Assembly (NCBI GenBank): GCA_023053685.1
Contig: JALIGW010000144.1
Coordinates: 191,977 to 255,976 of the forward strand
DNA length: 64,000 nt
Source: Diadophis punctatus similis
Taxonomy: Eukaryota > Chordata > Lepidosauria > Squamata > Dipsadidae
Direction: 5' to 3'
The position numbers were made by a program, and so were the translations under genes. The notes under the pieces were generated by a model that did not search any database, was not told where the DNA came from, and was given only the letters and a program-made list of their open reading frames with translations. Numbering within the stretch: position 1 is the stretch's first letter; every line of letters begins with the position of its first letter. Below are positions 2,904 to 61,522 of this stretch, piece after piece.

Positions 2904-3055
2904 GATGTCTATGGAAATTCTCAGTCGTCCAGGCTGTGGTTGTTCCAAAGGTGCTTTTTCAAGAACTGAAGAAGCTCCTGGGATGAGAAGTGAAACGTCT
3001 TCAAGAAAAAAACATGAAAGCCCAGTTGCCTTTTGAAAAAGCACCTTTGTGACAC
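2904..3055 (+). mobile_element. Penelope-like element terminal fragment, family 1
   Basis: Bounded by TCTATGGAAATTCTCAGTC and GAAAAAGCACCTTTGTGAC, the conserved edges of a repeat also found at 7024, 12762, 24355, 31905 and 36705. The 24.4-kb copy carries a peptide resembling the N-terminal region of PLE proteins, which is the basis for the PLE call. The fragment includes a hammerhead-like motif. Confidence 0.5.
2963..3002 (+). ncRNA. Hammerhead-ribozyme-like motif, PLE family 1
   Basis: Core block CTGAAGA at 2966-2972, GAAAC at 2992-2996 and cleavage triplet GTC at 2997-2999. Helix I is GAA (2963-2965) with TTC (3000-3002). Helix II is GCTCCT (2974-2979) with AGAAGT (2986-2991), partly decayed. 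Helix III is only the self-complementary ACGT, as expected of hammerheads thought to act as dimers. Confidence 0.45.
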
Positions 3056-6590: not shown

Positions 6591-7285
6591 TCCAACCCCC
6601 TGCTCAAGCAGGAGACCCTATATGATTTTTGACAAGTGGCTGTCCAGTTACTCTTCTTGAAAGCCTCCAGTGATGAAGCTCCCACAACTTCCGAAGGCAA
6701 CTTCTGTTCCATTGGTTGATGGTTCTCACTGTCAGAAAGTTCCTCCTTATTTCTAGGTTGAATCTCTCCTTGTTCGGTTTCCATCCATTATTCCTTGTCT
6801 GGCCTTCAGGTGTCTTGGAAAATAGCTTGACCCCCTCCTCTCTGTGGCAGCCCCTCAAATATTGGAAGACTGCTATCATGTCTCCCCTGGTCCTCCTCTT
6901 CACTAGACCAGCCATGCCCAGTTCCTGCAACTGTTCTTCATATACAGTATTTTAGCCTCAAGTCTCCTAATCATCCTGGTTGCTCTTCTCTGCACTCTTT
7001 CTAGAGTCTCCACATCTTTTTTTATAGTGTCTGTGGAGATTCTCAGTCAACCAGGTCATGGTTGTTCCAAAGGTGCTTTTTTCAAGAGGCAACTGGACTT
7101 TCTGGGTTTTCTTTGAAGACGTTTGGCATCTCGTTCAAGAAGCTTCAACGTCTTCAAAGAAAAGTCCAGTTGCCTCTTGAAAAAAGCACCTTTGGGCCTT
7201 TTTTAAAAAATAGTGTGGTGACCAAAATTGGATGCTGTATTCTAGGTGGGGTCTTACTAAGGCTTTATAGGCACAAAGCTGCAGC
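6591..7285 (-). mobile_element. CR1 LINE, RT C-terminus and 3' end
   Basis: The minus strand encodes MQELGMAGLVKRRTRGDMIA and onward to NQWN, followed by the CR1 3' UTR. Its 3' terminus touches the AATAG array. The element is split at about 7024-7198 by a PLE fragment and resumes at 7205 (GGTGACCAAAATTGGATGC). Confidence 0.9.
7024..7198. mobile_element. Penelope-like terminal fragment, family 1, decayed
   Basis: Edges CTGTGGAGATTCTCAGTC and AAAAAAGCACCTTTGG, with TAGTG present on both sides in the CR1 host. Only a palindromic remnant of the ribozyme-like centre survives. Confidence 0.55.
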
Positions 7286-11850: not shown

Positions 11851-12761
11851 CATCCTCACTGCAAAATGGAGTTTCTTCTCTTTTTCGGCTGGAAAAGACC
11901 ACCGCCTCAGTGTCCAATTTGCCATCCAAGGGAATTCAAAACCCTGGAAATTCACAGACACGGCCTGTTGCCGTGTTTTTAGCAATCAGTTCGTTTAAAA
12001 AAAAAATTTTTTTTTACTTCAGCAGCGCAGTTTAATTATTATTGCTCTTGCTCTAGATTGCCAGTTGCAGTTAAAGTGTGAAGTTAGGGAAATAAATACC
12101 CTGTCTTTCAAATCCACAAATGCAGTTGGCTCACTGAGAAACAGATTTTTTTAAAAAAAAAAATATTCTCATTATCGGCCATCGGTTCTGCTAACTCCCT
12201 GTGGTTTAGCTAGAAGTGAGCAACGGCTTGGCCTCCCTTCAAATTAGATTTCGGAGCCCGACAGGGAGGAGCAAAGCAAAGGCAGATAAAAAAATTTGTT
12301 TTAAACTTGCTATATTTGAGATTAAATTGGTGTGGGAAAGCAGTTTGGTGTATTTCTAAAAGTTTCTGTTGTCGTTACATTTGCACAGCACTCAATAACT
12401 ATAGCCAGGTTACTGGCATGCGTCAAATGTGTTCTTCGTTTTAAGAAAATGTAGAAGCATTTGGCACTTGAGGTCCCGATAGGCAATAAACTTTTCAGAG
12501 TTTAGGTCAAACCATTGAGCTAGAGAATTAATTGAAATTGGCAAAAATAATAATAATGGTGCTATGGAATAATGGTGTGTGTTGGGGAAAAAAATGAGAT
12601 ATTTTGCACCTTCCATGCTGTGTCTTCTGTAGGTATGGGCTCACACTTGCACTGGCTCTGCCCAGCTATAAATCAGTAGGAAATTAGAGCAAGAAAAATC
12701 TTGTAATACAGTGGCTCCCAAACCTTTGGGTACTAGGGACCGGTTCTGTGGAGAGAGTCGA
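11851..12761. other. Unassigned, largely unique-looking sequence
   Basis: About 900 bp without a recognised element or coding region. Short ORFs lack motifs. Confidence 0.5.
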
Positions 12762-13170
12762 TAGAGATTCTCAGTCATCCAGGTCATGGTTGTCCCAAAG
12801 GTGCTTTTTCAAGAGGCAACTGGACTTCCTTGTTTTTTCTTTTGAAGACGTTTTGCTTCTTATCCAAGAAGCTTCTTCAGCTCCGACAGGATGGTGGGGA
12901 ATGGAAGGATTTATATTCCTTGCAGGCAGCTGGTCATTTGCATCCTTTTAGAGGGTCCTTGAAGCACTTGGAGGTTTATCTGTGTCCTCAGGGACACCTG
13001 AGTAATGTGAAAGTCCAGTTGCCTCCTGAAAAAGCACCTTTGGGACAACCATGAGTTAGATTTAGATTTATTATTAGAGTTGGAAGGGACCTTGTAGGTC
13101 ATCTAGTCCAACCCCCTGCTCAAGCAGGAGTTCCTACACCCTTGGATGACTGAGAATCTCTACAGACGCT
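12762..13170 (-). mobile_element. Penelope-like terminal fragment, family 1, with CR1 insert
   Basis: Edges TAGAGATTCTCAGTCATCC and AAAAAGCACCTTTGGGACAA. The minus strand holds a ribozyme-like centre with CTGAAGA, but the second block reads CAAAACGTC instead of GAAACGTC, so the core is broken. A CR1 3' end (13049-13141) interrupts the right edge. Confidence 0.55.
13049..13141 (-). mobile_element. CR1 LINE 3' terminus inserted in the PLE fragment
   Basis: TTAGAGTTGGAAGGGACCTT to GCAGGAGTTCCTACACCC, a 90-bp 5'-truncated CR1 end lying between GACAACCATGA and GGATGACTGAG of the PLE repeat. Confidence 0.8.
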
Positions 13171-19153: not shown

Positions 19154-20008
19154 CTTACGACCTTCCTTGCCACAGTTGTTAAGTGAATCGCTGCCTGTGT
19201 TAAATTAGTAACACGGTTGTTAAGTGAATCTGGCTTCCCCTTTGTCTTTGCTTGTCAGAAGGCCGCAAAAGGGGATCACGTGACCTCCCCGGGATACTGC
19301 AACCATCATAAATATGAACCAGTTGCGGGGACTTCCGGTTTGGAGCGCGCCATCGCGGACGTCCCTTCGTCGGGCGCCTTTCCAATCTTCGTAAAAAGCT
19401 GCCAGAACAGCTGTCTGGCGGCTTTGAAATCTCTTCCCCGGGCAAAGGGGAGAGATGAGAGCTTGACAGGTGGGGTAGAGCCCCCCCAGCGCCCTAGGAG
19501 CCATCTAGTAGGGCGCGAAGGGAGAGCTCCCCATGCAGCCTGTCTCCAGCTCCGAAGATCAGGAAACCTCCGCCTTTGCGGAGCTAGATGTCGCGACCAG
19601 CCGCTGCTTCTAGAATGGGATTTATAATTACTTTTGAACTACAGAAGCAGACAGAGAGAAACAGGCGTGAGATGGGCAAGTAATGAAACCTCTTTTTTCT
19701 TTTTTTTTTCAACTCCTGGGTAAGCTTTCACTTCGGCAAAGAATTAAAGGAAACAAAGTAACAATATGGTGATTGAGAAGTGAAAGTGACTTTCGTTTCC
19801 CCAGAGGCTTTTTTTTCTTCTTTCTTTCTTTCTTATGGAAACTTTTAATTTGGAAAAATGGTTTTTTCTCTCTCTGTCTCCTAACCCTGGATTAAAGCTA
19901 TAATCGAAAGATTTCCAATAATAAAAGACTACCTGGTTTTTAAACTGGAAAGAACTTTAATCAGGCACCTGGCTTTCTTTCTTTTTTGTACTCTTTTGAA
20001 ACACCATA

Positions 20009-21079
20009 ATGGCTTCAAAATCTGGAAAGATTGTTTTGACTAAAAGAAATGACTATTCATCTGGATATATTTCTAAAATGCAACTTAACACTGAGTTAAC
20101 ACCTCCACAGCCTTTGACACCGGAAAATTTATTAAATAATTTAAAGATTATGAAACAGGAACTTACTTTGGAATTTAATCAGAAAATAAGTGAGATAGAC
20201 AAAAAAATGCAGGCTGCTTTGAAGAATATGAATCAACAACTCAGATTTGATGTGTTAGAGGTTTGCAAAGGTTTAGCAACAAATATTGAAGTTTTGGCAG
20301 AACATATTGAAACAAATAAACAAGCTTTGGCAACCTCGGTGAATTACATAGATAAAATTCAAAATGATATTGCAAATTTTGAAAAAGAGGTCTTGATGAC
20401 ACAGTTCAGATCCATTGAAGTTGCTATAAGGGTCAGAGGTTTGAAAGAGGGATTATTTGAAGATTTAAAAGGAAGGATGGTTGATGCATTGGATCAGGTG
20501 TCTGGAATTTCTAAAGTGGAATTGGCTACACAAATCGACAAAATATACAGAATCAATTCATGGTATGCTAAACAAAAGCATTTACCAAGGGACATTGTTA
20601 TATATTTTACCACAAGAGCTTTACGGAATAGAATTATACAAGCAACGTTTAACAATAATCTTATGGTGAATGGTCAGGAACTAAAGATTTGGAAAGAAAT
20701 CCCCTCTAAAATGCTTAAAGCCAGAAAAAGCTACACTTTTTTGATTGATGAATTTAAGAGACTAAATTTACAATATAAATGGGAAGCGCCAGTTGGAGTA
20801 GCAGTGAAATTTTCTGGAAAAAGATACCGGCTTAACACGATAAAAAAAGCTACTGAATTTTACGTCAATGCTTTAAAGGCTGATATATCCAAGATTCCAG
20901 AGGAAGGATGTATGAAAATAAAAGAGGAAGAGGAGGGGAAGCCATCTTTGCTGGATCAAAAGGAAATAGATTCAAAAACCCAAAAGGAGTGCCAGAACCA
21001 GATAGCTGGGGAAAAGGAGATGGAGGTTTGGGATCAGATGGGAGACGAGTCGACAAATTTGAATTTACTGAACTATTAA
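20009..21079 (+). CDS. L1 ORF1 protein (RNA-binding nucleic acid chaperone)
   Basis: 356 codons, uninterrupted. L1 ORF1p is a trimeric RNA-binding chaperone that coats L1 RNA in the cytoplasm. Seen here: a heptad-rich coiled coil at about residues 40-130; the RRM-like domain from about 136, with the signature VAIRVRGLKEG (138-148) and LPRDIVIYFTTRALRNRII (192-210); then the C-terminal domain with KMLKARKSYTFLIDEFKRLN (234-253) and FSGKRYRLNTIKKATEF (268-284). A charged Glu/Lys-rich tail (296-345) extends past the usual end. The start is the first ATG after a long T-rich leader (ACACCATAATGG). It has no host function that I can see. The intact frame suggests a young insertion or one that moves in trans using another L1's ORF2. 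Confidence 0.9.
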   Translation: MASKSGKIVLTKRNDYSSGYISKMQLNTELTPPQPLTPENLLNNLKIMKQELTLEFNQKISEIDKKMQAALKNMNQQLRFDVLEVCKGLATNIEVLAEHIETNKQALATSVNYIDKIQNDIANFEKEVLMTQFRSIEVAIRVRGLKEGLFEDLKGRMVDALDQVSGISKVELATQIDKIYRINSWYAKQKHLPRDIVIYFTTRALRNRIIQATFNNNLMVNGQELKIWKEIPSKMLKARKSYTFLIDEFKRLNLQYKWEAPVGVAVKFSGKRYRLNTIKKATEFYVNALKADISKIPEEGCMKIKEEEEGKPSLLDQKEIDSKTQKECQNQIAGEKEMEVWDQMGDESTNLNLLNY

Positions 21080-24354: not shown

Positions 24355-24960
24355 ACACTGTCCCAATGGTGCTTTTTTTTCAAGAGGCAACTGGACTTCC
24401 TTGTTTTTCTTTGAAGATGTTTCACTTCTCATCCAAGAAGCTTCTTCAGCTCTGACTGGATGGTGGGGAATGGAAGGATTTATACTCCTTGCAGACAGCT
24501 GGTCATTTGCATCCTTTTAGAGGGTCATTGAGGCCATCTGGAGGTTTATCTGTGTCCTCTGGGTCACCTGAGTAGTGCAAATGGGTGTGGTGCCTTCTTG
24601 GCTGCAGAATGTTTTCTGCCCTGTGTCCCTTCGCCGTTGAAGACAGGTGCAGGCTGTTGGGGATGAGTCTGTGTTGTCTGAATCTCAAACTGAAACACAA
24701 ATGGTTCCTGTACTCTGCAGTTTTTCTGAAAATCCGTTCATACTGCTGCACCATTCAAAGGGTGTTCATCCCAAACTGCATAGCTAAATGTTTATGGAGA
24801 TTCTGGGATGGAGGAAATCCTTCCGTTCCCCACCATCCAGTCAGGGCTGAGGAAGCTTCTTGGATGAGAAGCGAAAGCTCTTCAAAGAAAAACAAAGGAA
24901 GTCCCGTTGCCTCTTTGGGACAACCATGACCTGGATGACTGAGAATCTCCATAGACAACA
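24355..24960 (-). mobile_element. Penelope-like element fragment, family 1, with coding remnant
   Basis: On the minus strand the repeat runs from the TCTATGGAGATTCTCAGTC edge through a ribozyme-like centre into an 83-codon ORF (24503-24754) with YRNHLCFSLRFRQHRLIPNS, which resembles the N-terminal region of PLE reverse-transcriptase proteins. It then passes into a second copy of the terminal repeat. Repeats at both sides fit the pseudo-LTR layout of PLEs. The assignment is from memory of the family and needs a profile search. Confidence 0.5.
24413..24452 (-). ncRNA. Hammerhead-ribozyme-like motif, PLE family 1, cleavage site changed
   Basis: On the minus strand: CTGAAGA (24443-24449), helix II GCTTCT (24436-24441) with AGAAGT (24424-24429), GAAAC (24419-24423), then ATC (24416-24418) in place of GTC. 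Helix I is GAG with TTC. The change fits CpG decay. Confidence 0.4.
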
Positions 24961-25164
24961 CTGACACTGACTCCACTGAAGATGTTATCTAGCCTGGTAA
25001 TGAAATTTTCAGAAACTAACCTACAAGCTTGGAGGACGAACCTTCACCCTCGGAGAATGGTGGACCAACAGAGCTCTAAGCGATGAAGATCGATGTTCCC
25101 TGGCTTCAAAAACTAAAATCTATTACATACAGTTAGTGGGAATGGAAGAACTTGCCACAGCCAG
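24961..25164. other. Unassigned spacer
   Basis: Ends in GAACTTGCCACAGCCAG, part of the degenerate repeat described at 25558. Confidence 0.45.
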
Positions 25165-31904: not shown

Positions 31905-32105
31905 TAGGAAGACCCAAAGGTGTTTTTTTCAAGAGGCAACTGGACTTCCTTGTTTTTCTTTGAAGACATTTCACTTCTCATCTAACAAGCTCTTCTTGGA
32001 TGAGAAGCGAAACGCCTTCAAAGAAAAACCAGAAAGTCCAGTTGCCTCTTGAAAAAGCACCTTTGGGACCACCATGACCTGGATGATGTGATGATCTCCA
32101 TAGAC
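31905..32105. mobile_element. Penelope-like terminal fragment, family 1
   Basis: Two head-to-head half repeats: CAAGAGGCAACTGGACTTCC at the left and its complement GGAAAGTCCAGTTGCCTCTTG-like text at the right. The ribozyme-like centre reads GAAACGCC instead of GAAACGTC, so the cleavage triplet is lost. Confidence 0.5.
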
Positions 32106-32337
32106 ATGATAGGTATTCAAAGTATTCAAAATTCAAAGTATTGATGCTTTGAATTTTGGTGTTGGAGAAGACTCCTGAGAATATGGTGGATAGCCAAGAA
32201 AACAAACCAATGAGATCATCAAATTGACCCAGAGATTTCACTCAAGGCACACATGCCGAGACTCAAATTATCCTATGTTGTACATATTATGTGAAGACTA
32301 AGCTTTCTGGAGAAGGCTCTAATGCTGAGAAAGGTAT
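32106..32337. other. Unassigned spacer
   Basis: Short unique-looking sequence before the fold-back MITE. Confidence 0.45.
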
Positions 32338-32946: not shown

Positions 32947-34779
32947 TTATTTACTATTAGATGATATCTTATTCAGCAAATTTTTGTTGCCCAAAATCTT
33001 TTTATACATTTTGCCACACGATGAAGAAGAATGATTTATTTTAATTTGAAGCAAGCATTTTACGGTTTTAACATCCAATCGATTTCGATCGTCTGTCCAC
33101 TGCTTCTTGCACAGGGAAAATACTCTTTCCACAGCCACATTTGACGTAGGAATTGAAAAAATTATGCTAACTAGAATTTTCAGATCAAAGAATTTGTTGC
33201 TTCGAAACAAAGTGGACCATTTTTTATCAATCGGCAAATTATTAAATTCGTCTGAAGATGCTTCTAGCAATGAGTTCAACTCGCTAGTTTCATCAAACAA
33301 TGAATCTTTCATGGCAATATCTGGCAATAAATATTCAGCTGACTTTTGAACTTCATCATATTTAATACTAGCTTTTAACATCAGCCAATCAGTTGAGCAA
33401 GGATAATTGTCCAAGCTGAACCACTTATCAATATAATTAATAGCTGTTGTATAAAAGTCAATGAACTCGCCTTTAAGTTGATTGGCCAAATCCTGATCAT
33501 CTAAACCTAGTAGCTTAGAAGCTGTAATGGCACCAAAAAAGTTTTGCTGAAGTCGTTTTTGCATCTTTTGTTGAAAAGTAGTCATGGCATCTATCATTTC
33601 TGGTAGAAGTAGATCTTTCTTTTCCAGGGTCAATATAGTCTGCTGGAATAATTGTAAGACGCTTTGAAGAAACAAGAAATAAATTTCGCTTGAATCGTTG
33701 CTAAATAAATTTTCCAAAACTTTTGGAACATCGGCAGAGGATAAGGCAAGAGATTTTAATGCTGCCCATAGTTGCAAAATGCGTTCAGTAAGTGGTAGCA
33801 TGCTCAGCCACCTAGTATGTGAATGTGTTGGGAAAGTCGCATATTCAATTTCAACGAATTCACAAAATTCCTTGAACTTCTCATGCCACAGAGTAGACCC
33901 ATTGAAATAGGTCAAAATTTTGAATAACAGCATTTCTACATCCAGTGATAATCTTTCACATGCTTTTTTTGCCGCACTGTGGCATATATGCGCCAGGCAA
34001 CCAACAGCAATTAATTTAGAATTCAAGGTTTTTAGTTTGGCGAAAACGTTATTCTGCCCTTGTTGACTAGCACCGCCGAAATTCACATTAGCATTATCTG
34101 CACTGAAGGCTACTAATTTTGCCGGATCAAGATTGTTATTTTGCAAACAACTTTTTAAATATCGGAATATAATGTCAGATGTTTCACCCGGTAAATTAGC
34201 AAAATCTAACAGTTTTACAGCCAAACCATCCACTGGAAAATATCGAATAATAATCGGAAATTTTTTTATTTCTTTATGGTTGGAAGCATCTGTAGCAATA
34301 GAATAATAGCCATCTCCTAATTCGTTGAGTAGTTCTTTTACTGAATTTGGTGCTAAGACGTTGCAAATTATAGCCTGTGACTTTGTGTAGGATGACAAAA
34401 ACTTTTTGGCTATTTCAGAATCTGGAAAGATTGCTGTCAAAAGTTTGTTAGTACATTCATTACTTCTGAATGAAAGCGAAAGAACGGCTGTGTGATATGC
34501 TAGAACTGCTTCTGCAACTGATGTCTTCTTAGATACCGGTGCATTTTTACTGACAAAAAACTGTCCTATTTCAGCAGTTGACTTCTTGGATTTTGAATTT
34601 TTATCGTGAAGTTTTGTACCACAATGTTTAGAAATGGCTGGGGCGCCTGTACTTCCAATATCAATATCCGATGAACAATATGAACAGAATGCGAAAGTGT
34701 CTCCTTTTCTACTCTTTTTAATGCCATCAAAATCTTTAGAATATTCTTCTCGGTAAAGATTTTTCTTTTTCGTAGCCAT
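32947..34779 (-). CDS. hAT family transposase, intact
   Basis: 610 codons without interruption. A hAT transposase binds its own terminal repeats in the nucleus and cuts and pastes the element, leaving 8-bp duplications. Seen: a BED/TTF-like zinc finger near the N-terminus (C32-x2-C35-x16-H52-x5-H58); the first catalytic Asp in YYSIATDASNH (D164); the second in LVAFSADNANVNFG (D228); the family CxxH motif GCLAHICHSA (C261, H264); an insertion-domain TRWLS motif (322-326) with E332 downstream as a candidate acidic residue; and the C-terminal hATC dimerisation domain with IPTSNVAVERVFS (543-555) and WTDDRNRLD (561-569). The length is normal for the family. The start is the first ATG after an AT-rich leader, and basic residues (KKK) follow it, as in many DNA-binding transposases. 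The lack of any stop among so many decayed neighbours suggests recent arrival or continuing selection. Confidence 0.93.
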   Translation of the reverse strand: MATKKKNLYREEYSKDFDGIKKSRKGDTFAFCSYCSSDIDIGSTGAPAISKHCGTKLHDKNSKSKKSTAEIGQFFVSKNAPVSKKTSVAEAVLAYHTAVLSLSFRSNECTNKLLTAIFPDSEIAKKFLSSYTKSQAIICNVLAPNSVKELLNELGDGYYSIATDASNHKEIKKFPIIIRYFPVDGLAVKLLDFANLPGETSDIIFRYLKSCLQNNNLDPAKLVAFSADNANVNFGGASQQGQNNVFAKLKTLNSKLIAVGCLAHICHSAAKKACERLSLDVEMLLFKILTYFNGSTLWHEKFKEFCEFVEIEYATFPTHSHTRWLSMLPLTERILQLWAALKSLALSSADVPKVLENLFSNDSSEIYFLFLQSVLQLFQQTILTLEKKDLLLPEMIDAMTTFQQKMQKRLQQNFFGAITASKLLGLDDQDLANQLKGEFIDFYTTAINYIDKWFSLDNYPCSTDWLMLKASIKYDEVQKSAEYLLPDIAMKDSLFDETSELNSLLEASSDEFNNLPIDKKWSTLFRSNKFFDLKILVSIIFSIPTSNVAVERVFSLCKKQWTDDRNRLDVKTVKCLLQIKINHSSSSCGKMYKKILGNKNLLNKISSNSK

Positions 34780-34825
34780 ATTATAGTAATAAAGTACCGT
34801 ATTTACGGTACTTTATATATCGTAA

Positions 34826-36213: not shown

Positions 36214-36704
36214 TCTTTCTCACTGTCTTTATCTTCCCAGCCTTCCATTTTAAAGCAAAGGCAGTTTTCTGCAGGCAAGGAAAACCAGGTTCCTCCCTAT
36301 TGCCCCGAGAATGTGCTCAGAGCAAAGCATGCTGGGTAAACCTCCCCTGACACCAATCAGTAAGCAAAATCATTAGCCAAGCCAAGGAGTCAAAAAGGAT
36401 GAGAAAGGCCTGCCTTTGATGCGCCGCACTTGTGATCACAGCTACATGCCATAACAACCTACTTGGGCCTCGTAAGGCTGGTGCAGCTGTTCCTTCATCC
36501 CACGCAGGCATCCAAAGGGAAAAGAGGCACTTTGGCTTGCCTACTGCTGCAGCATCAACCCTCTGATTTATGGGCCCTATTTCCATTCATTCATTTGCTT
36601 AAATGAAAGGTCACAACCACACACACACACACTCACCAACAACCCCACTGCATTCCAAATAGTATGCTGGCCTATTTATCTGCACAGTGTGGATATTATT
36701 ATAT
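36214..36704. other. Unassigned sequence
   Basis: Short (CA)n at 36619-36632. An 89-codon ORF on the minus strand has no motif. Confidence 0.5.
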
Positions 36705-37034
36705 GTCTCTCTATATGTCTCAGTCATCCAGGTCATGGTTGTCTCAAAGGTGCTTTTTCAAAAGGCAACTGGACTTTCGTTATTTTTGCCTGGAGACTTC
36801 TTGCTTCTCATCCAAGAAGCTTTTTCAGTTCCTTTTCAGTTCAGCTTCTTCTTCAGAACTGAAGAAGCTTCTTGGATGAGAAGAGAAACGTCTTCAAGTA
36901 AAAACAAAGAAAGTCCAGTGCCTTTTGAAAAAGCACCTTTGGGTATATGTCTATGGAAATTCTCAAGTCATCCAGGTCATCGTTGTCCCAAAGGTGCTTT
37001 TTCAAGAGGCAACTGCACTTTCTTTGGTTTTGCT
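36705..37034 (+). mobile_element. Penelope-like terminal repeats, family 1, two copies head to tail
   Basis: TCAGTCATCCAGGTCATGG begins a unit at 36720 and again at 36966. The first unit ends AAAAGCACCTTTGGG. Its centre holds an inverted pair of ribozyme-like halves, and the plus-strand half has an intact core. Confidence 0.55.
36856..36895 (+). ncRNA. Hammerhead-ribozyme-like motif, intact core, PLE family 1
   Basis: CTGAAGA (36859-36865), GAAAC (36885-36889), GTC (36890-36892). Helix I GAA (36856-36858) pairs TTC (36893-36895). Helix II GCTTCT (36867-36872) pairs AGAAGA (36879-36884) over a TGGATG loop, with one mismatch at the base. Helix III is the self-complementary ACGT. Confidence 0.5.
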
Positions 37035-37530
37035 TGAGACCAATGCAAAGAATGAGTTAAGCAGCTCTGCTTTCTCTCTACTGCCTTTTACTTCCTTGCC
37101 ATCTTCTCTCTTTAGTCTACCAACTGTTTCCTTGACTTTTTTCATGTTATTTATGTTGAAAGAAACTTTTTTTTATTGTCTTTGACTTTTGTTCCAAGTC
37201 ACTATTCATTCTGAGCTTTTGCTTTCCTGACTTCATCTTTGCAGATTTGGGCTATCTGCTGATATTCTGCCTTAGGTGTCCCTCTTTCCATTTTTTGTAC
37301 TTACCCTTTTCGTCTTATCAGAGAGATCTTTGTACAACCTTGCTGGTTTCTTCTTGGATTTCTTGTTTTTCTTTTTCAATGGTATTGTGCTGGACTGGGC
37401 TTTTATGATCATATTTTTCAGTGTTTCTCATGCTTCTTGAGTTGTTTTCCCCTTTAGCATTTTTTGAATTCTTCTTAGGCTTAGAGTTTGTTAAAATCAG
37501 CTCTTTTAAAGTTTAAGACACTGGTTGGAT
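37035..37530 (-). mobile_element. CR1-like LINE fragment between endonuclease and RT
   Basis: The minus strand encodes KAEYQQIAQICKDEVRKAKA then QNE, a conserved linker of CR1 ORF2. The rest is frame-broken. Confidence 0.6.
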
Positions 37531-41825: not shown

Positions 41826-42384
41826 AACAGGCACATAGAGATAAACAACATCTACGTACCATTCAAAAGAAACAATCACAAAGCTATAAAGGAGGGGAAA
41901 AAGACCTCTGCCAGCAATCAACTCCCAGATAAGCAGAGAGTAAAACCAAGATTAATACTAGACCAACAATCAAACAGTAAACAATACCCCAAACAAACAA
42001 CTACCAACTCAAACAAAAAATCCAACGATAAACCAGCTTAATCAAGGAACCACCAAGAATATTCCCACCAAAATGGACAGCTAATCAAGGATAATTTATG
42101 GTTCAAAGCATTGGCTATCCCTGGAAGTAGATCATGTGATTAACCAAGAGAGGATGCTTCAAAGAGAATATCTGTAGCTCAGGGTTGAACTGTGGGGTCC
42201 CTGGTGCTCTCTAAACTTAGTTGTTGCTTTGTAGACATTTTATTATTCAACTAGGTAACATCATCGGTGCACCATTAGTCAGACAAACAAGCTATGAGTA
42301 AACAACAGCCAAATCAAGGAATCACCAAGAATAAACCCAGACAGGATAAGCTACTAAACAGAGAGGAAACCCCACTCCCTTTTA

Positions 42385-42424
42385 GCACTGATGATGTTAC
42401 CTAGTTGGGTCATGAAACATCTGC
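42385..42424 (+). ncRNA. Hammerhead-ribozyme-like motif, PLE family 2
   Basis: CTGATGA (42388-42394), GAAAC (42414-42418), then ATC (42419-42421) where GTC is expected. Helix I GCA (42385-42387) pairs TGC (42422-42424). Helix II GTTACC (42396-42401) pairs GGTCAT (42408-42413) with one mismatch, loop TAGTTG. Confidence 0.45.
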
Positions 42425-42505
42425 AAGGAAGCAACCACGTTCAGAGAGCACCAAGCGGCCCACCCTCCTCCTCCTCCTCCTCCTCCTCAACTCCACTCCC
42501 TTCTA

Positions 42506-42545
42506 GCACTGAAGATGTTACTTAGTTGGGCAATAAAATGTCTGC
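42506..42545 (+). ncRNA. Hammerhead-ribozyme-like motif, PLE family 2, decayed
   Basis: CTGAAGA (42509-42515), helix I GCA with TGC, helix II GTTACT with GGCAAT, cleavage triplet GTC (42540-42542). The GAAAC block reads AAAAT, so the core is broken. Confidence 0.35.
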
Positions 42546-48054: not shown

Positions 48055-48185
48055 TATTTGTAGCTCAGGGTTGAACTGGTGCTCTGTGAACTTGGTGGTT
48101 TTCCTACAGACATTTCATTACTCAACCAGGTAACTTCATCAGGGCTAAAAGAGAGTGTGGTTTGCAGATAGGAGGAGGAGGAGGA
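48055..48185 (-). mobile_element. Penelope-like terminal fragment, family 2
   Basis: TTTGTAGCTCAGGGTTGAAC edge and GGTGCTCTGTGAACTTGG, with the ribozyme-like centre on the minus strand. Confidence 0.5.
48106..48145 (-). ncRNA. Hammerhead-ribozyme-like motif, PLE family 2
   Basis: On the minus strand: CTGATGA (48136-48142), helix II GTTACC (48129-48134) with AGTAAT (48117-48122), GAAAT (48112-48116), GTC (48109-48111). The GAAAT/GTC pair keeps helix III as a U-G wobble. Helix I has decayed. Confidence 0.4.
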
Positions 48186-54325: not shown

Positions 54326-54414
54326 GTTTACACCCACCCATCTCACCTAAGTGACTCTGGGCAATTTACAACATCATGATAAAACCATATAAATACATGA
54401 ATACCGACAGAAGA

Positions 54415-54720
54415 GAATAGTTATAGTTGAACTGTGGGGTCCTTGGTGCTCTCTGAGCTTGGTGGTTTTCTTGCAGACATTTCATTACCAAACTAGGTAG
54501 CGTGATCAGTGCTCTGGTGGGTAGGGCATGCTGTCATAGGCATTCATGCAGAAAGAATAGATGTTCCTTGGTGGAAATGCACCTACATGCAAATTTCTCT
54601 CATTTGTGTGCTTTCTAAAGCATTTGACACCCTAATGTGGTACGGATATAGGAGAATAATTGTAGCTCAGGGTTGAACTGTGGGTGCTTTCTGAGATTGC
54701 TGGCTTTCTTGTAGATATTA
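54415..54720 (-). mobile_element. Penelope-like terminal fragments, family 2, two copies
   Basis: GGTGCTCTCTGAGCTTGGTG and GACATTTCATTACC (minus ribozyme-like centre) near 54450-54520. A second truncated unit lies at 54655-54715. The first block reads CTGATCA, so the core is broken. Confidence 0.5.
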
Positions 54721-54974
54721 ATCTTAACTATTTACTATTAATCTTCTCATGGTTCCTATCACCCATCTCCTCCCACTTATGACTGTAACTTTGTTGTTTT
54801 TATCCTTACAATTTATATTGACTGGTTCCTAATATGATTTCATTGCTTATTTGTACCCAGACTATCATTAAGTGTTGTACCTTAGGATTCTTGACGAACG
54901 TATCTTTTCTTTTATGTACACTGAGAGCATATGCACCAAAGACAAATTCCTTGTGTGTCCAATCACACTTGGCC
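54721..54974 (+). mobile_element. LINE 3' UTR ending CCAATAAAG
   Basis: TTAATCTTCTCATGGTTCCT to TGTCCAATCACACTTGGCCA then ATAAAGAATTCT, a non-LTR 3' end whose last bases lead straight into the ATTCT array. Confidence 0.6.
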
Positions 54975-55305
54975 AATAAAGAATTCTATTCTATTCTATT
55001 CTATTCTATTCTATTCTATTCTATTCTATTCTATTCTATTCTATTCTATTCTATTCTATTCTATTCTCTACTTCTTATTCTATTCTATTCTATTCTATTC
55101 TATTCTATTCTATTCTACTCTACTCTACTCTACTCTACTCTACTCTACTCTACTCTACTCTACTCTACTCTACTCTACTCTACTCTACTCTACTCTACTC
55201 TACTCTACTCTATTCTATTCTATTCTATTCTATTCTATTCTATTCTATTCTATTCCAATCCATTCCAATCCATTCCATTCCATTCCATTCCATTCCATTC
55301 CATTC
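54975..55305. repeat. (ATTCT)n array with ACTCT and CATTC blocks
   Basis: Blocks of TATTC, then about 22 CTCTA units, then TATTC, then CCAAT/CCATT units. On the other strand this is the same AATAG class as the 5.0-kb array. Confidence 0.96.
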
Positions 55306-55324
55306 TAGATGTTTTCTTATAAAC

Positions 55325-55412
55325 TAGTGCTCTAATGAGCTCTGATGTTGTTGCACAGTTGGGTAATGAAACGTCTGCAAGAAAACTGCCAATCTCAGAG
55401 AGCACCAAGGAG
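55325..55412 (+). mobile_element. Penelope-like terminal fragment, family 2
   Basis: Contains GGGTAATGAAACGTCTGCAA and CAGAGAGCACCAAGGAGG. The GAAACGTC block (55368-55375) is intact, but the first block reads CTGATGT and helix II is disturbed. Confidence 0.5.
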
Positions 55413-59124: not shown

Positions 59125-59940
59125 ATGGGGGACTTTAATTTGCCATCGCCCGGTGAAACCTCGGAGGCAGTCCAGGAGTTCATGGCTTCCATGACAACCA
59201 TGAACCTGACCCAAGTAGTTCAGGGTCCGACTCATGAGGGAGGTCACACGCTTGACCTTGTGTTTCTCTCGGGGCAGTGGAGAGATGATCTGAGGCTGAG
59301 GGGTTTAGTCACAACACCCTTGTCGTGGTCAGATCATTTCCTTCTGAGGTTGGATTTCATGGCACCACTCCTCCACCGCAAGGAGGCGGGGCCGAATAAG
59401 TGGTTCCGCCCCAGGCGCCTAATGGAATCTGAAGGATTTCAGAAGGAACTTGGGGAAATACCTGACTCCCTGGTACACGATTCATCTGAGGCTCTAGTGG
59501 CTGCTTGGAACCAGGCGGCAACGGGGGCCTTAGATCGGATTGCGCCTTTGCGGCCTCTCCGTGGCAGCGGATCCCGGAGGGCCCCTTGGTTTACTGAGGA
59601 GCTCCGGGAGATGAAGCGCCTAAAGAGACGCCTAGAGCGACGATGGAGGGCCAGTAAAGCTGAGTCTGACCGGACACTTTTAAGAACTTACATTAAGTCT
59701 TACTTAGTGGCGATAAGGGCGGCAAAATGCACGTATTTTTCCGCTCTTATTGCGTCCGCCGACTCCCGCCCAGCCGCCCTGTTTAGGGTGACTCGCTCCC
59801 TCCTAGCCAAGGAGGGAGCTGAAGATCCCTTGCAGGGCAGAGCTGAGGAATTCTCTCAGTTTCTGGCGGATAAAGTCGTTCAGATTCGGACAGACCTGGA
59901 CTCCATTTGGACAGGGCAAGATGACAGGGGTGAGTCTTAG
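59125..59940 (+). pseudogene. L2 ORF2, APE endonuclease C-terminal half
   Basis: 271 codons from the conserved MGDFNLPSPGET, through THEGGHTLDLVF and the catalytic-site SDH (residues 69-71, WSDHFLLRLDF), into the linker RAPWFTEELREMKRLKRRLE. The endonuclease N-terminus is missing. The frame ends at a TAG about 20 bp after the next ORF opens, so one frameshift near 59930 separates it from the RT. Confidence 0.85.
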
Positions 59941-61522
59941 TCCTGTTATATGGGACGAGTTTGAACCTGTCACTCCTGAGGATGTGGACAAGGCCATAGG
60001 AGCGATGAGCGCCTCCACCTGTTTATTGGACCCGTGCCCCTCCTGGCTGGTCTCTGCCAGCAGGGAGGTGACACGCGGCTGGCTCCAGGCGGTTGTGATC
60101 GCTTCTTTGAGAGAGGGATCCATCCCACAGCCTTTAAAAGCTGCGGTGGTGAGGCCCCTCCTCAAGAAGCCTTCCCTGGACCCAGCGGATTTAAAGAACT
60201 TCCGTCCAGTCTCCAACTTACCCTTCTTGGGTAAAGTTGTCGAGAAGGTGGTGTCGCTCCAACTCCTGCGGCTATTGGAGGATACTGATTATCTGGATCC
60301 CTTTCAATCGGGCTTCAGGCGCGGCTACAGTACGGAGACTGCTTTGGTCGCGCTGATGGATGATCTCTGGCGAGCCCGGGACGGGGGTTATTCCTCCATC
60401 CTGGTGCTACTTGACCTCTCAGCGGCTTTCGATACCATTGACCATGGTATCCTTCTGCGTCGTCTTGGGGAGATGGGAGTGGGAGGCACTGTTTTACGGT
60501 GGTTCTCCTCCTATCTCTCTGACAGGACGCAGTCGGTGTTGACAGGAGGACAGAGGTCGGCCCCTAGGCCCCTGGTTTGCGGGGTGCCACAGGGCTCGGT
60601 CCTCTCTCCCATCCTGTTTAACATTTACATGAAACCGCTGGGTGAGATCATCCGACGGCATGGGGTGAGGTATCAGCAGTATGCTGACGATACCCAGTTG
60701 TACATCTCCACCCCGTGTCAGTTCAGTGAAGCAGTTGATGTAATGTGCCGCTGCCTGGACGATGTGAGGGTCTGGATGGGAGTGAACAGACTCAGGCTCA
60801 ACCCAGACAAGACTGAGTGGCTCTGGATATTGCCTCCCAAGGACTATGTCGACTGTCCCTCCTTGGTTCTCGGGGGAGAAAAATTGAATCCCTCAGAACA
60901 GGTTCGCAATTTGGGTGTCCTCCTAGATCCACAGCTAAAATTGGATCAACATCTTTCAGCTGTGGCTAGGGGGACCTTTGCACAAATCCGTCTTGTGCAC
61001 CAATTGCGACCTTACTTGGAGAGGGAGGCCTTGCTCACAGTCACTCATGCCCTTGTCACCTCACGGCTAGACTACTGTAACGCGCTCTACATGGGGCTAC
61101 CCTCGAAGAGCATTCGGAGACTCCAGCTGGTACAGAATGCAGCTGTGCGTGCAGTAGTGGGTGTACCGAGATACACCCATGTAACACCTATCCTTCGCCA
61201 GCTGCATTGGCTACCAGTTAGCCTCCGGGTGCAATTTAAGGTGTTGGTCGTTACCTTTAAAGCCCTACATGGCTCAGGGCCAGGTTACCTGCGGGACCGC
61301 ATCCTACCACATACCTCCCTAAGACCGGTTAGGTCCCACAGAGAGGGCCTCCTCCGGGTCCCGTCGGCCAAACAATGTCGATTGGCGGGGCCGCGGGGGA
61401 GGGCCTTCTCTGTGGGAGCCCCGTCCCTCTGGAACCATCTTCCACCAGAGATCCGAACTATCCCCACCTTACTGGCCTTCCGTAAAGCCCTAAAAACATG
61501 GCTCTTCCGGCAGATGGGGTGA
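59921..61522 (+). pseudogene. L2 ORF2, reverse transcriptase and C-terminus
   Basis: 533 codons without a stop. RT copies the element RNA at a nicked chromosomal site. Motifs in order: NFRPVSNLPFLGKVVEKVV (93-111); FQSGFRRGYSTETALV (128-143); the first catalytic Asp in LLDLSAAFDTIDHG (D165); GVPQGSVLSPILFN (221-234); the YADD box in YQQYADDTQLYIS (YADD at 254-257); RLRLNPDKTEWL (290-301); and the C-terminal LWNHLPPEIRTIPTLLAFRK (503-522). All catalytic residues look intact. Because the element lacks its 5' end and carries a frameshift it cannot make a full protein, so it is filed as a pseudogene. Confidence 0.88.

Follow-up and report, generated by a model that had tools for sequence, protein, structure and literature searches.

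Two families of minimal hammerhead motifs, most likely marking the ends of Penelope-like retrotransposons, in a 64-kb genomic window

The 64-kb window, by which is meant the whole stretch of DNA analysed, carries 16 copies of a 40-nt motif, nine assigned to family 1 (a count that includes three rearranged or fused copies at 31962, 31980 and 7115) and seven to family 2, made up of the six sites listed in a first-pass annotation plus ten more. The motif runs in the order helix I (3 bp as modelled), CTGANGA, one extra base, helix II (6 bp), a loop of 6, GAAA, C or T, and GTC or ATC, and thus presents the CUGANGA...GAAA core of a hammerhead ribozyme, UH before the cut and helices I and II, with helix III represented only by a palindromic ACGT. 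The copies are located as follows:

42385..42424, plus strand: family 2 hammerhead, the reference site; CTGATGA, extra T, helix II GTTACC/GGTCAT (one T.C mismatch), GAAAC, ATC; predicted cut after 42421
42506..42545, plus strand: family 2 hammerhead, 121 bp from 42385 on the same strand as a two-unit direct array; G12 changed to A
42231..42270, minus strand: family 2 hammerhead, head-to-head with 42385
48106..48145, minus strand: family 2 hammerhead
54473..54512, minus strand: family 2 hammerhead, long-tailed, forming the left arm of 54414-55412
55339..55378, plus strand: family 2 hammerhead, short-tailed, forming the right arm of 54414-55412
24973..25012, plus strand: divergent family 2-like hammerhead with a broken helix I and a perfect helix II (GTTATC/GGTAAT); directly behind the flanking repeat of the 24361-24958 insert
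2963..3002, plus strand: family 1 hammerhead
12844..12883, minus strand: family 1 hammerhead
24413..24452, minus strand: family 1 hammerhead; helices I and II complete, ATC at the cut site
24844..24883, plus strand: family 1 hammerhead with long tail
31962..32019, unstranded: head-to-head fusion of two family 1 hammerheads, both 5'-truncated
36792..36831, minus strand: family 1 hammerhead
36856..36895, plus strand: family 1 hammerhead; ACGT helix III palindrome kept
7115..7154, minus strand: family 1 hammerhead remnant, 5' part rearranged

All six of the sites first annotated (2963, 24413, 36856, 42385, 42506 and 48106) bear the motif at these positions and on these strands, each with CTGANGA intact and the extra base behind it. 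The remaining details of that description were partly corrected: GAAAC, claimed for both families, is present at four of the six sites but replaced by AAAAT at 42506 and GAAAT at 48106; the helix III palindrome ACGT survives at two (2963 and 36856), the other four reading ACAT or ATGT, the pattern expected from CpG decay; and of the helices, said to have kept their pairing, helix I is perfect at five of the six sites and helix II at only one (24413). The motif itself is real, and the first reading of it was essentially right.

A loose form of the core pattern matched six times in the window against 1.16 expected, four of the matches lying at the listed sites, one at the divergent 24973 copy and one elsewhere (38356). 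When 13 window copies were aligned, leaving out the rearranged or fused 31962, 31980 and 7115, standard pairs occupied 87.2% of the helix cells as opposed to 74.1 ± 2.4% after shuffling (a level reached by none of 500 shuffles), and sliding the partner lowered the paired fraction to 31.9–59.8%. The two family consensuses differ at 14 of 40 positions, N7 and the extra base among them; the 12 core positions are the same in both, and all nine helix pairs are kept though nine of the 18 helix positions have changed, four pairs on both sides and one on one side. The covariation originally claimed between the families is thereby borne out, such complete retention being matched in only 58 of 200,000 random replacements at random places, and in 3318 of 200,000 random letterings when the changed places were held fixed. 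Because the two families look related by descent, this covariation is a single between-family contrast, not many. Within the window pairing did not exceed that of shuffles for either family taken alone, and the 13 double-changed cells recorded among sampled family 2 genome loci (2.6 expected) derive from a structure-fitted alignment, possibly with some family 1 copies in it, and were not relied upon.

In a cross-family test, a covariance model built from six family 1 copies, with or without its pairs, was searched on the window. With pairs included, four of the seven family 2 copies were recovered at E < 0.1 and three were not found, the strongest being 42506 (23.0 bits, E 2.8e-5) and 48106 (18.8 bits, E 8e-4), and the weaker 42385 (14.8 bits, E 0.02) and 54473 (13.3 bits, E 0.07). 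Since unrelated short matches at 59840 (E 0.064) and 63153 (E 0.067) scored like 54473, only three of the seven stand above chance level. Without pairs, the same alignment found only 48106 (10.5 bits, E 0.033) and 42506 (3.3 bits, E 6.3), that is, one of seven at E < 0.1 and two of seven at E < 10, structure thus contributing some 8 bits to the former and some 20 bits to the latter. These figures bear on the possibility that the resemblance arose by chance, or through an old repeat dividing into two, RNA structure playing no part. Relationship by descent, as suggested by the recovery of 48106 by sequence alone, and the greater frequency of full pairing once the changed places are fixed would both accommodate such an origin, but the rarity of full pairing after replacement at random places, the loss of pairing on sliding the partner and the bits that structure adds across the families all speak against it, and it is regarded as highly improbable. 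Conservation of the same minimal core and extra-base place in two families with rewritten stems offers comparative support for the hammerheads of Penelope-like elements (PLEs) having been selected, now or formerly, as RNA structures. Rfam models, which may or may not be sensitive to minimal PLE hammerheads, detected no hammerhead in the window at gathering threshold or at E up to 10; motif pattern scans of viral_contigs and genome_contigs gave zero matches each, and six motif strings sought among sequences printed in papers were without a match.

The extra base, present in both families as first annotated, is less unusual than was then supposed, since the available part of a study on chrysanthemum chlorotic mottle viroid describes an extra A10 between A9 and 10.1 of the plus hammerhead, at which A10U cleaves 3–4 times faster and A10C and A10G are damaging (PMC3705267). 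Among the genome loci examined, this base was A in all 48 family 1 copies, whereas the 113 family 2 copies had T (103), C (7), A (2) or G (1). The families accordingly resemble the viroid in placing a base between A9 and G10.1, family 1 having the A of the viroid and family 2 the U of its faster variant; they differ from it, as far as that text goes, in being minimal motifs in transposon ends, whereas the viroid ribozyme has loop I/II interactions. In family 2, the same base forms part of a further feature, interpreted with the help of PAc, a Poseidon element of Anolis carolinensis:

42394..42396, plus strand: ATG overlapping the core (A9, extra T, G10.1), likely start codon of a PLE open reading frame, from the sequence and the available part of the PAc description (PMC11167929)

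As this ATG spans A9, the extra T and G10.1, the extra U is the U of the likely start codon. The core-overlapping ATG is kept in 88 of the 113 family 2 genome copies; family 1, with A as its extra base, has no ATG at the core.

A search of the genome (1.78 Gb) with the family 1 end returned 43 matches, 41 of them at 96–100% identity and nearly full length. Two of the loci, L035 and L061, share 579 bp at 89% extending upstream of the family 1 end, and at L061 this shared upstream stretch is an open frame with a GIY-YIG-like segment, the frame being present in L061, L063 and L064. Against PF01541 (Pfam) the segment scored 17.2 bits (E 0.0063), under the 22.6 cut-off, and 41 homologous proteins in a large protein database included four tagged PF01541, one tagged PF26215 and two with fish names. 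With the endonuclease-like segment as query, 150 scored matches were obtained among 5084 candidates in the genome, and a family 1 hammerhead lay downstream on the same strand at 17 of the 20 loci fetched, 159–168 nt from the endonuclease match at 14 and 363–556 nt from it at three, the last three having none; without L064, the query's own locus, found through its hammerhead, the counts become 16 of 19 and 13 of 19. Family 1 hammerheads therefore belong to the repeat behind this frame. Judged by its homologues, the form of the inserts and known features of PLE proteins, the frame likely belongs to a Penelope-like element, and the minimal PLE-type hammerhead to which the first-pass annotation had pointed is the best reading of the motif. 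To take the frame for a PLE endonuclease, and not simply for some GIY-YIG protein, is in part our assumption.

No PLE reverse transcriptase frame was recognised by eye upstream at L063, apparently a truncated copy. A genome search with the PF01541 profile returned L031 and L032 only, and no PLE, L031 being presumably an SLX1-like host gene; the 150 matches of the later peptide search indicate that the profile had missed PLE copies. PDB searches with the endonuclease frame and with the 35-aa family 2 N-terminus gave no match. At L072 (1971-2010 and 3125-3164, plus strand; seen again as L080), two endonuclease plus hammerhead units were found in tandem 1154 bp apart, an arrangement that reads as a partial-tandem PLE.

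Many of the window copies occur as head-to-head pairs, eight in all (six family 1, two family 2), each judged by eye to combine one longer and one shorter tail. Flanking direct repeats of 7–13 bp were found at five of the eight inserts (nominal p 0.017–0.06 each against random flanks), and none at the other three:

2905..3054, unstranded: head-to-head insert, tail long on the left arm and short on the right; without a significant flanking repeat
7026..7198, unstranded: head-to-head insert, long/short tails; 7-bp flanking repeat
12751..13051, unstranded: head-to-head insert, long tail and intermediate-length tail; flanking repeat not found
24361..24958, unstranded: head-to-head insert, short/long tails; flanking repeat of 13 bp, one position mismatched
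31913..32107, unstranded: head-to-head insert, short/long tails; 9-bp flanking repeat
36704..36945, unstranded: head-to-head insert, long/short tails; 9-bp flanking repeat, made ambiguous by an abutting third arm (36950-37037)
42161..42456, unstranded: family 2 head-to-head insert, long/short tails; flanking repeat not found; next come a CTC tract and the second direct unit
54414..55412, unstranded: family 2 arms in head-to-head orientation, separated by about 820 bp, with simple repeats and another family 2 fragment between them; long/short tails; flanking repeat of 12 bp, one position mismatched

Across 29 family 1 genome loci, 16 neighbouring pairs lay within 700 bp of each other, 13 head-to-head and three direct, with mixed tails in nine of the 13 head-to-head neighbours and not in the other four. 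One of the window inserts also carries a promoter-like element:

12907..12919, minus strand: TATA-like box, reading GGAATATAAATCC on that strand and lying 24-36 bp before the family 1 hammerhead at 12844..12883

By its spacing this box would be predicted to place the transcript start near the 5' edge of the ribozyme. Several Rfam miRNA families matched 31914-32066 and 36789-36898 below their cut-offs; both places are family 1 head-to-head palindromes, and the miRNA assignment was rejected.

The same head-to-head arrangement is described, in the available part of the relevant paper, for Penelope of the rotifer Adineta vaga and, according to that paper, of flies and fish (PMC3846280). The rotifer element resembles the present inserts in having a pLTR with the first codons, paired inverted pLTRs of which one may bear a tail, head-to-head palindromes, a TATA box and short flanking duplications; unlike here, the word 'hammerhead' is absent from the portion of its text available (PMC3846280). 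The rotifer paper, within that portion, prefers self-priming as the origin of the palindromes (PMC3846280), and PAc protein, according to the sections available, cuts and extends both target strands in vitro (PMC11167929). By analogy, a protein that cuts and extends two strands would be expected to yield the head-to-head form.

The likeness of family 2 to PAc was judged from the published description of the latter (PMC11167929, in the sections available, as throughout this paragraph), not from sequence alignment. The PAc hammerhead lies at the pLTR/ORF junction, and in family 2 the ATG similarly overlaps the core at the start of stem II, with C3 and G8 before it, the predicted cut falling 25 nt after the ATG compared with 26 bp in PAc (PMC11167929). 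PAc possesses an AC-rich stem loop and an optional 30-40 bp tail; correspondingly, family 2 has an AC-rich stretch able to fold as AGCTCAG...CTGAGCT (in a family 2 composite) and two 3' ends about 38 nt apart (PMC11167929). By hand count, family 2 ends at about +62 to +64 (42385, 55339) and about +101 (the 42231 copy; others have internal deletions), initiation in PAc occurring 111-118 bp into the ORF; in addition, family 2 copies are found in short direct arrays that have CTC tracts, where the PAc main text reports tandem and partial-tandem elements (PMC11167929). On the strength of this PAc-like anatomy and of its likeness to family 1, family 2 is itself likely to be a PLE end, and the two families are likely to be two coexisting PLE lineages; the divergent copy at 24973-25012 may, from its sequence, represent a third PLE family. 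At L013, upstream of 1724 (plus strand), the hammerhead of a family 2 end is preceded at about 28-36 nt by a TATATATAA box and, further upstream, by another hammerhead in inverted orientation.

Both families are thus very probably minimal hammerhead motifs, most likely the ends of Penelope-like retrotransposons, and their RNA is predicted to cut itself following GTC or ATC, with two motifs probably acting together. They are most likely new copies of an already known kind of ribozyme. Following published PLE work, the element protein would cut and extend both target strands and reverse transcription would start inside the element's own RNA at one of two sites about 30-40 nt apart, the expected outcome being 5'-truncated inverted copies ending in hammerhead plus tail. 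Because the loop of helix III is missing, two molecules, or two copies per RNA, would be needed, and helix III is predicted to form when the ACGT of one motif pairs with that of another, the two motifs lying on separate RNAs or in different units of a single array, whereupon cleavage would trim or separate tandem transcripts; the element protein may be required for folding. PLE hammerheads were reportedly treated by Cervera and de la Pena in 2014, and in work of 2017 by Lünse small PLE hammerhead variants are said to cleave as dimers. A need for two motifs would agree with the literature on PLE hammerheads and dimers as represented in the available part of a review (PMC7761336), and the core, the missing helix III and the location in the PLE pseudo-LTR all liken the present motifs to the small PLE hammerheads, within the available parts of two sources (PMC7761336, PMC6155905).

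In the genome, the core is intact in 34 of 48 family 1 copies (these being the best matches to a query with intact core) and in 75 of 113 family 2 copies, and the ACGT palindrome is present in 22 and 44 respectively. Core plus all nine pairs are kept in 28 of the 48 family 1 copies, 15 of which also have ACGT, and in 14 of the 113 family 2 copies, one of which also has ACGT. Helix II pair 3 is unpaired in 68 of 102 distinct family 2 rows from the sampled loci, mostly through C there (66% of the 113 copies); the query carried this C, and the family 2 sample is therefore biased for the unpaired state. Most of the window and family 2 copies are decaying remains.

The copies were also examined for signs that the ribozyme now acts. 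Conservation was no higher in the core than in loop II (0.945 versus 0.951 in family 2; 0.953 versus 0.979 in family 1), and the lowest-energy two-strand folds predicted (-23.0 and -28.4) lay below the drawn dimer (-11.1 and -11.3). Among the 5' ends of genomic copies there was no peak at the post-cleavage base (1 of 74 matches in family 1, 0 of 137 in family 2); instead, the starts gather around the point where the motif begins, family 1 having 11 of its 74 between -4 and +7 and family 2 having 18 of its 137 between -5 and +3, a distribution that fits either a transcript start after a TATA box or palindrome junctions. In the available account of PAc, its RNA was cleaved in vitro only with its protein and core mutants abolished cleavage, while hammerhead mutants left insertion in vitro unaffected and no RNA ends were found at the cut site (PMC11167929); the lack of a 5'-end peak here agrees with that last result. 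It could be argued from these observations that the stretch is kept as a binding or priming site for the element protein and as a coding start, its likeness to a hammerhead having no present catalytic role, as normal insertion by the PAc mutants, the want of ends at the cut and a core conserved no better than the loop would all suggest. Retention of 12 core positions and nine pairs between families differing at 14 of 40 positions, the occurrence of the same core in family 1 with no ATG at that place, and cleavage of PAc RNA in the presence of protein by the natural core and not by its mutants tell against this, and it is considered quite unlikely.

Family 2 is further distinguished by its organisation into arrays. 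The genome query was from a copy inside a direct pair, carrying C at helix II pair 3, and 40 of 1491 candidates were scored; the covariance model found 125 family 2 motifs, and string matching found 113 in 26 loci, of which 100 lie in 25 direct arrays of 2-7 hammerheads. The window pair 42385 plus 42506 has this form. Spacings (n = 75) have a median of 148 bp and a range of 97-329 bp. Behind 61 of 75 internal units, as against four of 25 last units, lies a CTC or pyrimidine tract, and a long tail was present on none of the 75 internal units, six of the 25 last units and seven of 13 single copies. Units resemble each other with a mean score of 0.859 within arrays versus 0.822 between them, and 42 of 100 units had their nearest neighbour within their own array, with ties counted in favour of it. 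No title dealing with such direct arrays was found in a literature search of titles and abstract starts.

Direct tandem units, each with a hammerhead, are one feature of metazoan retrozymes, and they are found in the family 2 arrays. According to the available part of the relevant paper, animal retrozymes are short tandem repeats with canonical type I hammerheads, and minimal hammerheads in tandem are mentioned for axolotl PLEs (PMC7229834). Family 2 resembles the metazoan non-LTR retrozymes of that account in its short direct arrays with a type I-like hammerhead per unit, and differs from them in its minimal motifs, the likely start codon within the core and the microsatellite spacers (PMC7229834). 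It may therefore be asked whether family 2 is, on its sequence organisation, a non-autonomous retrozyme-like element, the units of which would be cut to RNAs of about 100-330 nt, perhaps circles, and copied by the PLE enzyme, in place of simple PLE ends. The prevalence of direct arrays, the restriction of long tails to last units and single copies, and the published precedent of short tandem type I repeats lend this some weight; to be set against it are the mixed origin signal from unit likeness, the canonical hammerheads of published retrozymes, the choice of a query from a direct pair with 40 of 1491 candidates scored, and the CTC tracts, through which plain DNA-level duplication would be an equally simple origin of the arrays. 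It is retained as a real, if minority, possibility.

More specifically, family 2 might be a non-autonomous, PLE-born retrozyme of 2-7 direct units, in which neighbouring minimal hammerheads that overlap the start codon would act as pairs in cis and RNAs of about 150 nt, likely circles, would be copied back as arrays by the PLE enzyme; this is advanced tentatively and is thought somewhat unlikely. Transcription through such an array would put several hammerheads on the same RNA, as a ribozyme active only as a dimer requires. If direct arrays were processed by their own hammerheads, they would constitute a natural cis-dimer system and supply the dimer-only hammerhead with a natural substrate in cis; they might also bridge PLEs and retrozymes, between which a connection is already proposed in the available part of a review (PMC7761336). 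The family 2 direct arrays are the part worth following.

Among the other features of the window, an uninterrupted 620-aa frame at 32947-34812 (minus strand) has a hAT C-terminal dimerisation domain (PF05699, E 3.3e-9) and may, by its sequence, encode an intact-looking hAT transposase or a domesticated derivative. A 359-aa open frame at 20000-21079 (plus strand), the Pfam matches of which were weak and below cut-off, may be a LINE ORF1, as we presume, and several other frames we take to resemble the 3' ends of CR1-like LINEs. A 571-aa frame at 59807-61522 (plus strand) with a reverse transcriptase domain (PF00078, E 6.7e-38) is probably a LINE.
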